Shown piece after piece: positions 12,769-19,416 of a stretch of 64,000 nucleotides of DNA. How positions within the stretch are numbered: the stretch's first letter is position 1; each line of letters starts with the position of its first letter. The notes under the pieces were generated by a model. That model was not told the origin of the DNA, made no database searches, and saw nothing but the letters and a program-made list of their open reading frames with translations. This DNA comes from Thermococcus henrietii (GTDB taxonomy: Archaea > Methanobacteriota_B > Thermococci > Thermococcales > Thermococcaceae): the NCBI RefSeq assembly GCF_900198835.1, contig NZ_LT900021.1:1922001-1986000 (forward strand), given 5' to 3'. A program made the position numbers and the translations under genes.

Positions 12769-14532
12769 TTAGCGCCTCCGCGTGGTTAGCGGAAGGACTG
12801 CAAGGGCAAGGAGCAGGACTGCACCGGGTCCGCAGATTCCGCTGGACGTCTCTGGCGGCGAGGCCGTCGTCGGCCGCTGAACCTCGACGTGAACCTGCCT
12901 GCTGACTCCAAGGACGTGCTCATCGGGAATCCACGCCGGAGGCTTCTCGCCGAGCGTTCTGAGAATTGCGGCGAGGAGAGGATGGCTCTTGGTCTTAGGC
13001 TTCCTGTCCGCAGTGATTTCCCAGACCATAACACCCCCCAGAGTGTGGTTGAGGGCGTAGCTCACTTTTATGGCTATGCTCTTAGGGTCGTCGTAGGTTA
13101 TGAAAACGCCCCTGCAGTAGGCCCAGGGCACCCTTGAGACGTTGCTCCAGTAGCGGGTGCACTTTCCGCTCGCTATCCTGCCGGCTATGTCCCAGTAGTC
13201 CATGACGCCGTGCGTCTCGCTCGCGGGTCCCCACGTTCCGGCAGGGGTGCCGCTGAACCTCTGGTAGAGACCGTGATTTGCCGGCGGAACGTTGGCAAAG
13301 GCCCTACCGTAGAAGGGAACCCCGAGGACGAGCTTCTCGCCGGGAACCCTCTTCAGGTACCAGCTTATCGTTTCATTGACGCTCCCGAGCCCAGGCCCGT
13401 TGGGGTCCTGGTAGAGGGGCGCGTTGAAGTAGGTAACGTTCAGCCAGGGTCCCGCGTAGTCGTAGGCCATGACGTCTATGAAATCAACGATTTTGGAAAC
13501 CTCCTCCCAGTTCACCCGAGACGCTATGGTCGTGTTGGCAGGGGCGGCGACCGTTAGGAGGTAATGCTTCCACGTGCTCGCGTTGTCAAGGGCTTTCCTG
13601 ATGGTTTTGAGGAGGAGGACGAAGTTCTTTCCGTCGTCGGGTCTGACGTGGTTCCCCTCCTTACCCCCACCTCCGGGGTACTCCCAGTCGATATCAACGC
13701 CGTCGAAGCCGTACTTTTTGAGTATCCCCACGACGCTCCTCGCGAAGTTCTCACGCTTGACGGGGTCGGCGGCTATGTCGGAGAAATACTTGCTCAGAGT
13801 CCAACCACCAACGGAGACAAGGATTTTGACGGCCGGATACTCCTTTTTGAGTCTCTTAAAGGCCTCAAAGTTCATTGGGTCCGCATACGAGTCGGCCCAC
13901 GTGACGGTTCCGTTCGGAAGGGGCTTCAGGAAGGCGTAGAGCACGTGGGTGACGTTCTCGAAGGGAATGTCATAGGGTGAGAACGCCCTCGCATAGATGC
14001 CCCAAGAGATGTAGTAGACGACGATGCGGTACGGCTGGGGAGGTGTTTTCACTATTAAGACGTTGGAGGGCCTTCCAAGCTTGCCACCCTCGAAAACCGG
14101 CCGGATGAAGTAGTAGTAGGTCGTGTTTCCGTGGAGGGAGTCATCAACGAAATTAGTGGCCGGGATTATCGGACCGAGCCTCTCCCAGTCTCCGCTCCCA
14201 GGAGGACTGGACGTGACGCGCTTGGCCCTCCAGAGTGAGCCGTTGTACTGAACGACCTCACCCTTAAGGTACGCCTCGCCCGGCGTAAAGCTTGAGTAGT
14301 TGCTCCAGTTCACGGTCACTATGGGACTATCAGTCACGTTGTCTCGGGAAGTACTCCGGTAAACGCGGTACGCTATTGCACCTTTAACGGGACTCCACGT
14401 GAGGTTCACTGCGTCCCAACCGAGTATCCCAGCCTTCAGAGAGGGACCCGACCCAGCATAGACGGGACGGTTGGTCATGGGAAGAACGCCGATGAGGAGG
14501 ATAACGAGAAAGGGCACGAGAATCCGCCTCAT
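12769..14532 (-). CDS. GH18 chitinase with cell-surface CGP-CTERM tail
   Basis: About 587 residues. Signal peptide (residues about 1-27), then an Fn3-like domain interrupted by a CBM5/12-like chitin-binding stretch (PGEAYLKGEVVQYNGSLWRAK, about 83-105). A GH18 barrel spans about 165-530 with the catalytic DGVDIDWEYP, the acid Glu near residue 284. The C-terminus SSGICGPGAVLLLALAVLPLTTRRR is a CGP-CTERM sorting tail (Cys-Gly-Pro, hydrophobic helix, Arg cluster) known in Thermococcaceae, so the enzyme is probably fixed to the cell surface. ATG 14532 follows GAGGTGA; the GTG at 14541 would be inside that site. It is closely related to the N-terminal third of the upstream chitinase and lies 36 nt behind it in the same operon. 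Confidence 0.92.
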   Translation of the reverse strand: MRRILVPFLVILLIGVLPMTNRPVYAGSGPSLKAGILGWDAVNLTWSPVKGAIAYRVYRSTSRDNVTDSPIVTVNWSNYSSFTPGEAYLKGEVVQYNGSLWRAKRVTSSPPGSGDWERLGPIIPATNFVDDSLHGNTTYYYFIRPVFEGGKLGRPSNVLIVKTPPQPYRIVVYYISWGIYARAFSPYDIPFENVTHVLYAFLKPLPNGTVTWADSYADPMNFEAFKRLKKEYPAVKILVSVGGWTLSKYFSDIAADPVKRENFARSVVGILKKYGFDGVDIDWEYPGGGGKEGNHVRPDDGKNFVLLLKTIRKALDNASTWKHYLLTVAAPANTTIASRVNWEEVSKIVDFIDVMAYDYAGPWLNVTYFNAPLYQDPNGPGLGSVNETISWYLKRVPGEKLVLGVPFYGRAFANVPPANHGLYQRFSGTPAGTWGPASETHGVMDYWDIAGRIASGKCTRYWSNVSRVPWAYCRGVFITYDDPKSIAIKVSYALNHTLGGVMVWEITADRKPKTKSHPLLAAILRTLGEKPPAWIPDEHVLGVSRQVHVEVQRPTTASPPETSSGICGPGAVLLLALAVLPLTTRRR

Positions 14533-14568
14533 GAATCTCACCTCGAGGGGAGGATAAAAGAAAAGAAC

Positions 14569-17500
14569 TCAAATGGGGACCACGGCCGCCTCTGCGGCTC
14601 CCGAGTGAACTTTGACAAAGGCGTTCATGAACTCCACGAAGACGTGGCTGTAAGCCCAGTCCGGGTTGCTGGTACCGCTGTTGGTCGGCGAAACCTGTCC
14701 TTCCTGCCCGGGGTGGTCACGGTCGACGCTCCAGAAGGAGAGGGAGCGTATCTTGTGCTCTATGGCCCACTCCACGAGCTTCCTAGCGTCGCTGAGAGTG
14801 AAGACGCTGTGGTCGTCGTTTGTTCCTATCATCGGGGTGAGGCCAATCATGCCCCAAATCTCCGAGTCGCTCTTGTTTGGATAGAGCTTCTTAAGCTGGC
14901 TGAACAGGTGCTCGGCCACCTTTATGGCATTGTCTGCGTTCGATGGGGTCCAGTAGTAATCCATGGTCATGGCGTTCACCCGGTCAATTCTGACGCCTTT
15001 CTCAACCATCGTTTGGATTATTGAGTAGCCGCTTCCAACGAGACCCGCTCCAGGGTCTGTGGGTAGGGTGAAGCTTATCCGTATCCCCGGCCTCTCGCGC
15101 TGAACGATGAGCAGTGCATCCGCGAGGAGGTCTGCGTTTATTGAGGATTCAATGTCAAAATCAATGTAGCTGACGTTGTAAGTGTCAATCACCTGGAGGT
15201 ACCACTTTGCGAGCTGTTCGGCACTCTGAGCCTGCTGACAGAGGTAGGGGCCAACGGCGCCACCGAAGCTTATTATCACATCGCCACCGGCCTTCCTAAG
15301 CTGTTTGACCTCGTCAACGTACTTGTCAAGCGGTAGCTTTCCTCCCCAGCTCGGACCGTTGTACGCGGAGCCGTAAAGGACGAAGGCGAGGGTGAAATAT
15401 GGAGTTCCCGTGAGCTTGTAATACTCGACCAGCGGCTTGTGGACGCCAGTGAGGGTCATGTCTATGTAGGGCGCAAAGAAGTGCTCCGGAAGTCCAGGAC
15501 CTGCAGGAACGTAGGTGTTGTTGCCCGGAGCAGGAGTCGGAGTCGTGTTGTTGCTCGGCGTGCCGTTTCCTGGTGACGGTGCGGGGGTTGAGTTGCTCTG
15601 GTTCTGCGCCGGAACGGAGCTTCCCTCTGGCCAGACGTCCCAGACCTTGCCGTTTACCTCGAGAACCATCTGCTCAACGGGCTTGCTCCCACTTGCTATG
15701 AAGCCGAAGGTCGCTGTGGGGCCGCGGTTCCAGCTCACGGGTGTCAGGACTATCCAGCCGTCTTTCTTGGCTTTATTCACACTCCATATGCTGGTTATTC
15801 TGGAGCCATCCCTGAGCTTAACCTTGACGACCCAGTCGTACTGACCGCCGAGGTTCAGGGTAACATCGTACTCGGTGCTTCCCCAATCCGTAACGCGAAC
15901 GCTTATCGCACCAGGCTTCAGCACGCTACCGTTGCTCGGAGAGGGAGTTGGTGCTGGAGTGGTGTTGTTGGCCGGTGTGGTGTTGCTCTGGTTACCCGGA
16001 GTGGGAGCGGTTCCGTTGCTCGGGGCCGTTTGGTTCTGAGAGGGAGTCGAGTTTGTTTGATTGCCAACGCCCGGGTTCGTAACGTTGCTGGGCATCGGAA
16101 TCGGACCGAGCTCGGGCGTGAAGTTCAAGGGAGGAAGGCCGCTCTGGTTTGTGTACCGGTTGAATATCCTGCTGAACTCGTAGTCCTGGATGTTGGGAAG
16201 GCTTGAGTGGTGGGGTGAAACGCCACTGCTTCCCGGGTGGTCCCTGGTCATTGACCACATTGAAAGCATTCCGACCCCGGTTTTGTTCGCCCACGCGAGG
16301 AGCTTCCAGGCATCACTTGGGTAGAAGACCTCGCTGGTGACGTCGTTGACGCCAATCATCGGCGTTATGCTAATCATTTCCCAAATCTCGGCGTCGCTCT
16401 TGTTGGGGAACAGCTCCTTGAGCTGTTTGAAGGTGTTTTGAGCGGCTTGAATGGCGTAGTCGCCCATCTTGCCGTCCGGATTTGGAGCCGCCCAGTCACC
16501 GTAGTCCATGGCCATTATATCAACCCTGTCAATCCTGACGCCGTTCTTGATGGCGTCCTTGAGGAGGTCTATTCCAGGCTGGGTAAGACCACTCGGGAGA
16601 ACGGGAAGGGTAAAGCCTATGTGGACGTTCGGGAAATCCTTCTGAACTATCGCCAGAGCCTTGGCACGCCTGTCGTTCTCCTGGGCGTTCTGGAGGTAGG
16701 CACCCTCGACGTCGAAGGTGAGCCACGTGGCGTTGTACGTCGTGATGACTTCCTCGATGGCCTTCGCGAGCTCCTCTGGGGTTGAACACTTCTCCGCGAG
16801 GTACGGCCCGTTGGCGCCGCCGAATGCTATCTCGACGTCGCCGCCCATCTCGCGAACCTTGTTGATTTCATCAACGTAGAAGCCACTGCTAACCGGATAA
16901 GCACCCGCCCAAGCCGGCGTGCAGGTACCGTTGTTCGAGGCAATGATAAAGGCGAGGTTGAAGAACCTTACACCGGTCTTCTTCATCATTTCACTTATCG
17001 AGGGCGTTGGCCAGAGGGTTATGTCCACGTAGGGCGAGAATACACGGTTCGGCCACTGAACCTTCGAGGCAACGGCAACCTTGGAGTTCGTCGGCGTTGT
17101 TGGGGAGTTGTCGGTCGAACCACCGCCCAATCCGCGGAACTCGGATGGAACGGGGGTCCCCTTGGGCCAAACGTCCCAAACGGCGTTGTTAACGACGAGA
17201 ACCATGACGGCGCTCTTAACGCTTCCGGTGTACGTGAACCCAAAGCTCGCCGTTGGTCCCCTGTTCCAGCTCCGCGGTGTGAAGACCACCCAGCTTCCGT
17301 TGGCTGATTTGTAGGCGCTCCAGTAGCTGGCGACCGTTGCCCCGTCAAGCTTAACGTAGAGCTTCCAGTCGTACTGGCCTCCAAGGTTGAGCGTAATGTC
17401 GTACTCGCCGCCAGTTCCCCAGCTGGAGTGGTGAACCTCGATTGCGCCCGGCTTCAGAGGGGTGGTGTTGGTGCCGTTTGAGGGAGCAGGAGTCGGAGTC

Positions 17501-19368
17501 GTGTTTGTTTGATTCTGGGAGGGAGCAGGATTTGTCTGGTTCTGGGAAGGTGTCGAGTTGGTCTGGTTACCCTGAGAGGGGAAGGTTTCATTGCTCGGTG
17601 TAGTGTTCGTCTGGTTGTTGCCTGGAGTTGTTCCGTTGTAAACCGGAACGGGAACGGTGAGGTTTGACGGAACGTTTGAGCCTATGTAGTATATGTCGGG
17701 AATCCATGCCGGCGGCTTCTCCCTGAGGTGCTCGAGGATTGCGTCGAGAAGCGGGTGGTTGCTGGTTCCTGGCTTCCTGTCCGCGGTGATTTCCCAGACC
17801 ATAACGCCCCCAAGGCTGTTCTTCAGCATGTAATCGACTTTTATCCCGATGCTCTTGGGATTGTCAAAGGTTATGAAGACCTTGCTCGAGGGACAGTACG
17901 CGTAGGGCTCCATTGTAACGTTGTCCCAGTAGAGATGGCAGCTTCCGCTCGCTATCTTGTCGGCTATGTCCCAGTAGTCCATGACGCCGTAGGTCTCGCT
18001 CGCAGGTCCCCAGGTACCGTCGGGAGTGCCTTTGAAAGGCTGGTACAGTCCATTGTTGGTGGACGGAACGTTGGCGAAGCTCCTACCATAGAAGGGCAGG
18101 CCGATTACGAGCTTTGTCCTGTCGGGAACATGCTTGAGGTACCAGTGGACGGTGTAGTTGACGTTGAACTCCCACTTTACAACGGGGTCCTTGTAAGGGG
18201 CGTTCGGGTCGGCGTAGAGCGGGGCGAGGAACCCGGTAACGTTGTCCCATGCACCGTGGTAGTCATAGGTCATTATGTCTATGAAGTTAAGGTACTTGCT
18301 AGCCTCGGTCCAGTTGATGCGGGCCGCTTTGACTGGGTCCGCGGGGGCCGCGACGGTGACAAGATAATCCTTGTGGTCGTGCTTGCTGGCGTTGTTAAAG
18401 ACCTCCCTTATGGTCTTGAGGAGGAGAACGAAGTTCTTCCCGTCATCGGGCCTAACGTGGTTGCCGGTAAGCCCGCCCCCACCGGGGTACTCCCAGTCGA
18501 TGTCAACTCCGTCAAGGTCGTACTGGCGGATTATCTTAAGGACACTCTCGGCAAAACGGAGCCTCTTCGCAGGGTCTGCGGCTATGTCGGAGAAGTACTT
18601 GCTTAGCGTCCAGCCGCCAACGCTGACGAGGACTTTAACCGCTGGGTATTTTTGCTTGTACTTCTTCAGCTCCTCAAGGTTGAGCGGGTCAGCGTAGGTG
18701 TCGTAGAATGTGACGCTACCGTTCTCGTTCGGCTTCAGAAAGGCGTAGAGAACGTCGGTAACCTTGGTCCAGGGGATGTCGCTCACGTAGAACTTCCTCG
18801 CGTAGCGACCCCAGGAGATGTAGTAAACTACGACGCGGTACGGTTGCTCGGGAGTTCTTAACTGGAGCACGCCGGAGGGGGTTCCAGTGGAACCATCTTT
18901 GAGTACCGGAACGACCGCGTAGAAGTACGTTGTATTGGCCTTAAGGTGGTACTGGTCAAGGTAGTGGGTCGTGGGAGTTGCATCGCCAACGAGCTCCCAT
19001 GCATCCCCGCCCGGAGCGCTCTGGGTCCAGTACTTGGCGCGCCAGATTTTACCGTTGTACTCAACCATGTCACCCTGGAGATACGTCTTACCCGGCTCAT
19101 ATGGAGGGTAGCTACTCCAGTTGACGACAACGAGGAGGTTGTCAGGGCTGATGATGTTCGTCGGGTCCGTGGAGCGGTAGATTTCATAAGCCTTGGCATT
19201 CTCAGCCGGTGTCCAAGTTAGGTTAACCACGTCCCAAGCAATCGCTTTTCCGCTCAGCTGGATTTGAGACGATGCCGAAACAAACCCAAAGAAGGGCACA
19301 ACTGCAGGCACCACCGCCAACAGCATAACGGCCACGACGGCCATGCTCAAAAACTGCCTCCGGTTCAA
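14569..19368 (-). CDS. chiA: Large secreted chitinase with three GH18 and three chitin-binding domains
   Basis: 1599 residues; extracellular hydrolysis of chitin. Order: signal peptide (1-33); Fn3-like part with CBM5/12-like insert (KTYLQGDMVEYNGKIWRAK, about 94-112); GH18-A about 175-550 with DGVDIDWEYP (Glu near 293); N/T/P/Q linker about 575-638; CBM2-like domain about 640-735; GH18-B about 775-1070 with FDVEGA (Asp886, Glu888); linker about 1090-1148; CBM2-like about 1150-1245; linker about 1253-1290; GH18-C about 1295-1590 with DFDIES (Glu1407). T. kodakarensis ChiA has about 1215 residues and two catalytic domains, so a CBM2-GH18 unit looks duplicated here. The start is TTG 19368 behind GGAGGTGA. 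No C-terminal anchor is seen. Confidence 0.93.
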   Translation of the reverse strand: MNRRQFLSMAVVAVMLLAVVPAVVPFFGFVSASSQIQLSGKAIAWDVVNLTWTPAENAKAYEIYRSTDPTNIISPDNLLVVVNWSSYPPYEPGKTYLQGDMVEYNGKIWRAKYWTQSAPGGDAWELVGDATPTTHYLDQYHLKANTTYFYAVVPVLKDGSTGTPSGVLQLRTPEQPYRVVVYYISWGRYARKFYVSDIPWTKVTDVLYAFLKPNENGSVTFYDTYADPLNLEELKKYKQKYPAVKVLVSVGGWTLSKYFSDIAADPAKRLRFAESVLKIIRQYDLDGVDIDWEYPGGGGLTGNHVRPDDGKNFVLLLKTIREVFNNASKHDHKDYLVTVAAPADPVKAARINWTEASKYLNFIDIMTYDYHGAWDNVTGFLAPLYADPNAPYKDPVVKWEFNVNYTVHWYLKHVPDRTKLVIGLPFYGRSFANVPSTNNGLYQPFKGTPDGTWGPASETYGVMDYWDIADKIASGSCHLYWDNVTMEPYAYCPSSKVFITFDNPKSIGIKVDYMLKNSLGGVMVWEITADRKPGTSNHPLLDAILEHLREKPPAWIPDIYYIGSNVPSNLTVPVPVYNGTTPGNNQTNTTPSNETFPSQGNQTNSTPSQNQTNPAPSQNQTNTTPTPAPSNGTNTTPLKPGAIEVHHSSWGTGGEYDITLNLGGQYDWKLYVKLDGATVASYWSAYKSANGSWVVFTPRSWNRGPTASFGFTYTGSVKSAVMVLVVNNAVWDVWPKGTPVPSEFRGLGGGSTDNSPTTPTNSKVAVASKVQWPNRVFSPYVDITLWPTPSISEMMKKTGVRFFNLAFIIASNNGTCTPAWAGAYPVSSGFYVDEINKVREMGGDVEIAFGGANGPYLAEKCSTPEELAKAIEEVITTYNATWLTFDVEGAYLQNAQENDRRAKALAIVQKDFPNVHIGFTLPVLPSGLTQPGIDLLKDAIKNGVRIDRVDIMAMDYGDWAAPNPDGKMGDYAIQAAQNTFKQLKELFPNKSDAEIWEMISITPMIGVNDVTSEVFYPSDAWKLLAWANKTGVGMLSMWSMTRDHPGSSGVSPHHSSLPNIQDYEFSRIFNRYTNQSGLPPLNFTPELGPIPMPSNVTNPGVGNQTNSTPSQNQTAPSNGTAPTPGNQSNTTPANNTTPAPTPSPSNGSVLKPGAISVRVTDWGSTEYDVTLNLGGQYDWVVKVKLRDGSRITSIWSVNKAKKDGWIVLTPVSWNRGPTATFGFIASGSKPVEQMVLEVNGKVWDVWPEGSSVPAQNQSNSTPAPSPGNGTPSNNTTPTPAPGNNTYVPAGPGLPEHFFAPYIDMTLTGVHKPLVEYYKLTGTPYFTLAFVLYGSAYNGPSWGGKLPLDKYVDEVKQLRKAGGDVIISFGGAVGPYLCQQAQSAEQLAKWYLQVIDTYNVSYIDFDIESSINADLLADALLIVQRERPGIRISFTLPTDPGAGLVGSGYSIIQTMVEKGVRIDRVNAMTMDYYWTPSNADNAIKVAEHLFSQLKKLYPNKSDSEIWGMIGLTPMIGTNDDHSVFTLSDARKLVEWAIEHKIRSLSFWSVDRDHPGQEGQVSPTNSGTSNPDWAYSHVFVEFMNAFVKVHSGAAEAAVVPI

Positions 19369-19416
19369 ATGTGGTCACCTCCCCATGGGTGCTCATTATT
19401 TATCAACAACGTACAC

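Follow-up and report, generated by a model that had tools for sequence, protein, structure and literature searches.

A secreted three-GH18 variant of Thermococcus ChiA encoded by Thermococcus henrietii

Among archaeal chitinases, the two-domain ChiA is the best known, and it shows an endo/exo division of labour within a single chain. ChiA of T. kodakarensis (TkChiA) is the product of TK1765, and we took our comparison genome G023 to be T. kodakarensis KOD1. A ChiD-type chitinase of T. chitonophagus was reportedly described by Horiuchi and co-workers in 2016. In TkChiA, the N-terminal domain A is exo-acting and releases diacetylchitobiose, and the C-terminal domain B is endo-acting (PMC3575233; PMC6579819). 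The premise of the first-pass annotation of this locus, that known Thermococcus ChiA has two GH18 domains, agrees with this description (PMC3575233).

We analysed a 64,000-nucleotide stretch of the T. henrietii genome (the window), in which a 1599-codon open reading frame without any internal stop encodes, in order, a signal peptide, CBM5, GH18-A, CBM2, GH18-B, CBM2 and GH18-C (Table 1). The Thermococcales ChiA layout, a single secreted chain with an N-terminal CBM5 and GH18-A, a CBM2 and an AD2-type GH18 at the C terminus, was present. By sequence, GH18-A corresponds to domain A of TkChiA and GH18-C to its domain B or P. furiosus AD2, and a third GH18 domain (GH18-B) and an additional CBM2 lie between them. 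With three catalytic domains and not two, the protein is therefore a variant of Thermococcales ChiA.

Table 1. Features of the three-domain chitinase gene and its neighbour (positions in the window).
Feature	Position	Strand	Evidence or remark
chiA-type gene, 1599 aa, three GH18	14569..19368	-	TTG start, stop included; same-order orthologues in G024, G018, G051
TATA box (archaeal) TTTATAAA, 49-56 nt upstream of start codon	19417..19424	-	read from sequence
Shine-Dalgarno GGAGGTGA, strong, 6 nt 5' of TTG	19375..19382	-	read from sequence
Signal peptide (NRRQFLSMAVVAVMLLAVV...SASS)	19270..19368	-	twin-arginine look
CBM5/12 module, residues 90-124	18997..19101	-	PF02839, 29.4 bits against a cut-off of 26.2
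GH18-A catalytic domain, residues 176-535, TkChiA exo-type domain A	17764..18843	-	PF00704; A-domain tree
N/T/P/S linker 1	17461..17691	-	
CBM2-1	17149..17457	-	PF00553; clade with CBM2 of the same genome's ChiD-like protein
GH18-B, extra catalytic domain, residues 772-1075	16144..17055	-	PDB matches, AlphaFold, Foldseek
GH18-B active-site motif LTFDVEG	16702..16722	-	Thr884 replaces first Asp of DxDxE; Asp886 and Glu888 kept
N/T/P/S linker 2	15925..16143	-	
CBM2-2	15613..15921	-	matches chitinase chitin-binding domain of PDB 5DHE
Linker 3	15499..15612	-	
GH18-C, P. furiosus AD2 type (endo)	14620..15498	-	2DSK, E 9.9e-153; IDFDIES at 15145-15165
Second chitinase, 590 aa, single A-type GH18, hydrophobic C-terminal tail	12769..14541	-	27 bp downstream; neighbour kept in G024

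The whole protein matched PF00704 at 3.9e-98, with the best stretch in GH18-A, and CBM_5_12 and CBM_2 (two CBM2) scored above their Pfam cut-offs. PF00704 gave a weak signal on GH18-C and no match on GH18-B, which falls into one GH18 subgroup with GH18-C. GH18-B matched PDB entries 9BUF (S. venezuelae chitinase 1; 8e-75) and 2DSK (2e-71), and its AlphaFold model (pLDDT 93.8) resembled both in Foldseek (TM 0.92 and 0.91, respectively) and superposed on them at 1.3 and 1.7 A. Homology to GH18 chitinases and a TIM-barrel fold were thus found for A, B and C. Taken together, the Pfam and PDB matches and the superposition indicate that the three GH18 domains proposed in the first-pass annotation for this 1599-residue protein are real. 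The two CBM2-GH18 stretches with N/T/P-rich linkers (N/T/P/S in our reading) and the motifs FDVEGA (from residue 885) and DFDIES (from residue 1403) were likewise as it described. The GC content of GH18-B was 56.1%, compared to 55.7% for A and C, and hence base composition gave no signal of a foreign origin.

The TTG start of the gene is credible, since it is preceded by GGAGGTGA and TTTATAAA and the orthologue in G024 opens with the same N-terminal LNRRQFLSMAVVAVM. The signal peptide contains NRRQFLS, a twin-arginine look-alike that is common to G024. A search for TatC, whose control was positive in 11 of 14 genomes, detected none in the source genome. Tat export from NRRQFL was therefore rejected, and Sec is the likely route for the predicted signal peptide.

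We conclude that the protein is a secreted form of Thermococcus ChiA enlarged to three catalytic domains; it is a novel version of a known enzyme and no artefact. In the explanation that we prefer, to which as a whole we assign a probability of about 0.6, GH18-B is a further active hydrolase of bacterial-type origin, acquired via domain shuffling and not through duplication of CBM2-GH18-C. The binding modules would tether the enzyme to chitin, while, by analogy with TkChiA, GH18-C would cut chitin internally and GH18-A would free diacetylchitobiose from chain ends; A and C should thus have the exo and endo roles, respectively, of their TkChiA counterparts. GH18-B would add hydrolysis by a retaining, substrate-assisted mechanism involving Asp886 and Glu888, and its rate or pH dependence may be changed because Thr884 stands where an Asp usually assists the catalytic Asp. 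The name 'Exochitinase 1' attached to 9BUF is a PDB label only and does not settle whether GH18-B is endo- or exo-acting. Most likely, GH18-B entered as a bacterial-type GH18 together with a Thermococcus-type CBM2.

The first-pass annotation had read the repeated order as a duplicated CBM2-GH18 unit, and the similarity of the linkers in the two stretches is in line with this. Such an old tandem duplication within Thermococcales, after which most species would have lost the copy and B would have diverged, appears to us unlikely. C domains were 74-98% identical to each other and B and C only 44-49%, so that B and C split long before the C domains of the family began to diverge; the annotation was right in that B and C diverged long ago. 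GH18-B was as near to bacterial enzymes as to C, with 45-49% identity to the nearest bacterial domains (up to 49% to planctomycete and actinomycete domains), and C reached at most 45%. No bacterial relative closer than 49% to GH18-B was found, and thus no donor is visible. Behind the catalytic Glu, both GH18-B and the bacterial domains have an insert, and both carry a MAMDYGDWAAPNP loop (DWAAPNP-type); these features are absent from GH18-C and from haloarchaeal relatives. The bacterial relatives also carry the CBM2-GH18 order. A duplication would in addition require loss of the copy in most lineages.

In larger trees, C paired with haloarchaeal plasmid-encoded domains and B was not joined to C, with modest support and long branches flagged. 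A reduced (trimmed) tree weakly united B with C plus one haloarchaeal row (66/49), and AU tests did not reject a B+C clade (p 0.098 and 0.21), which leaves the duplication some credit. The haloarchaeal rows of the B/C tree came from plasmids only, and a wider archaeal search of 115 genomes of the phylum gave no new relatives for it. One haloarchaeal protein, on a Halosolutus gelatinilyticus plasmid (L129:1013-3361, +), has two GH18 domains of the GH18-B/C subgroup.

A comparison of CBM2 and GH18 distances is independent of the deep branches in the B/C tree. CBM2-1 and CBM2-2 were separated by 0.7-1.0 substitutions per site and GH18-B and GH18-C by 1.3-1.7 (1.34-1.67). Between orthologues, CBM2 diverged more than GH18 in three pairs (0.43 versus 0.36, 0.40 versus 0.35 and 0.33 versus 0.24), with the reverse for CBM2-2 between G000, the source genome, and G024 (0.12 versus 0.17). 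A single CBM2-GH18 duplication should have left the CBM2s at least as distant as the GH18 domains; the CBM2 split instead appears younger, which does not fit. We therefore do not find the duplication supported as stated, although the AU tests do not reject it.

CBM2-1 is clearly of Thermococcales type by sequence, which a duplication would also explain: in phmmer searches its Thermococcales matches were far stronger than any bacterial CBM2 (best about 29 bits). In the tree, it fell in one clade (97/87) with the CBM2 that the genome's ChiD-like protein carries, and with neither CBM2 of TkChiA; the simple scenario in which GH18-B was inserted between two CBM2s already present in a TkChiA-like ancestor is therefore unsupported. 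The simplest account, which we favour without regarding it as proven, is a mosaic in which a bacterial-type GH18 was joined to a resident CBM2 and put between A and CBM2-C.

The first-pass annotation had also stated that all three domains keep a D-x-E pattern. This pattern is indeed kept, but the annotation missed that GH18-B lacks the first Asp of DxDxE. The complete motif was found in GH18-A (DGVDIDWE from residue 286; DIDWE) and GH18-C (DFDIE), whereas GH18-B reads T-F-D-V-E. At position 884, Thr was present in all four Thermococcus B domains and Asp in 55/55 other rows of the subgroup in an alignment of bacterial and archaeal sequences. By homology and fold GH18-B remains a GH18 domain, but its active site is not canonical. 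This conserved loss is, in our opinion, the most interesting part of the protein.

Thr884 may make GH18-B a poor enzyme, and its occurrence in all four species could mean that GH18-B has little or no catalytic activity and, with the first Asp lost, was retained as one more module that grips chitin, or for transglycosylation. Mutation of the equivalent Asp lowers the activity of other GH18 enzymes: two Listeria chitinases retained about 33% and 13% of their activity when it was replaced by Ala, and a strong drop has also been reported for Asp140 of Serratia ChiB (PMC7334433). However, some activity persists in such mutants, and GH18-B retains Asp886, Glu888, the M-x-M-D-Y motif (MAMDY) and the barrel Trp. 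For the G000-G024 pair, dN/dS was 0.10 for B, 0.20 for A and 0.09 for C, synonymous sites being near saturation in more distant pairs. Purifying selection on GH18-B is thus about as strong as on GH18-C, and B evolves about as slowly. As GH18-B is constrained about as strictly as the other two domains, its decay is unlikely, and we consider a weak or inactive domain quite improbable. Similarly low odds attach to the idea that GH18-B is a natural DxDxE variant selected for a new role between the exo and endo domains, for instance as a relay module that holds the chain or transglycosylates. GH18-B is most likely active with altered kinetics.

In a survey of 94 Thermococcaceae species, a PF00704 search detected GH18 in 17, and a GH18-B query found the B domain in four (G000, G024, G018 and G051). 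All four have the N-terminal domain, A, CBM2, B, CBM2 and C in a single frame of 1571-1633 codons, and their B domains are 83-100% identical. An assembly error or chimeric gene prediction is refuted by these orthologues, with the same layout in four genomes, a continuous frame and uniform GC. The layout is recurrent yet a minority one, being neither unique nor common in the genus; it occurs in 4 of the 10 species that have a C-type GH18, and the wide occurrence in the genus that would have refuted the first-pass annotation was not seen. Species with C and without B include T. kodakarensis-like G023 (A-CBM2-CBM2-C), G069 (A-CBM2-C) and G005, in which A-CBM2 and C are on separate genes.

Module shuffling in Thermococcales chitinases is plain, for example in G005, where GH12 is fused to CBM2-CBM2-GH18-C. 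This cellulase-chitinase fusion (L089:7228-10119, -) is a 964-residue protein with a GH12 endoglucanase domain, closest in the PDB to 3VGI (4e-70), two CBM2 and an AD2-type GH18, and GH18-A-CBM2 is located elsewhere in that genome. In G080, from another genus of Thermococcaceae, an AD2-type GH18 (L096:4199-5189, +) is broken by a frame change and stops and is apparently a decayed chitinase.

The second chitinase immediately downstream is probably co-transcribed with the chiA-type gene, and its C-terminal tail is a possible membrane anchor. Its GTG start may be wrong, as the ATG three codons further on has a GAGGTGA in a better position. Elsewhere in the genome, near 1276000, a ChiD-like protein (L098:6189-8186, +) combines a CBM2 with a region without Pfam match, and similar proteins occur in G068 and G053. 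Together with a candidate PIG-L deacetylase of the diacetylchitobiose pathway, these genes suggest that the organism looks equipped for chitin use.

In the literature searched, with most subscription journals outside its coverage, we came across no account of an archaeal chitinase with three GH18 domains. With a natural three-domain ChiA one can test directly what a third domain contributes on crystalline chitin at 80-90 C, and GH18-B is a naturally selected test of the need for the first Asp of DxDxE. The protein also documents module shuffling in Thermococcales glycosidases.

Several known proteins resemble parts of this enzyme. The ChiD-like protein of the source genome, which we take to resemble T. 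chitonophagus ChiD, has a CBM2 similar to CBM2-1, but unlike in the three-domain ChiA its other domain is not GH18. S. venezuelae chitinase 1 (9BUF) is the best sequence and fold match of GH18-B and shares the insert after the catalytic Glu, but it is bacterial, keeps DFDIE and is 47% identical. GH18-C is the orthologue of P. furiosus chitinase AD2 (PF1233; 2DSK); GH18-B has the same fold and 45% identity to it, but differs in its additional loops and in the missing first Asp of DxDxE. ChiA of T. kodakarensis (G023) has the signal peptide, CBM5, GH18-A, CBM2 and GH18-C in the same order, with 72% identity in A and 77% in C, but contains two adjacent CBM2s and no GH18-B.
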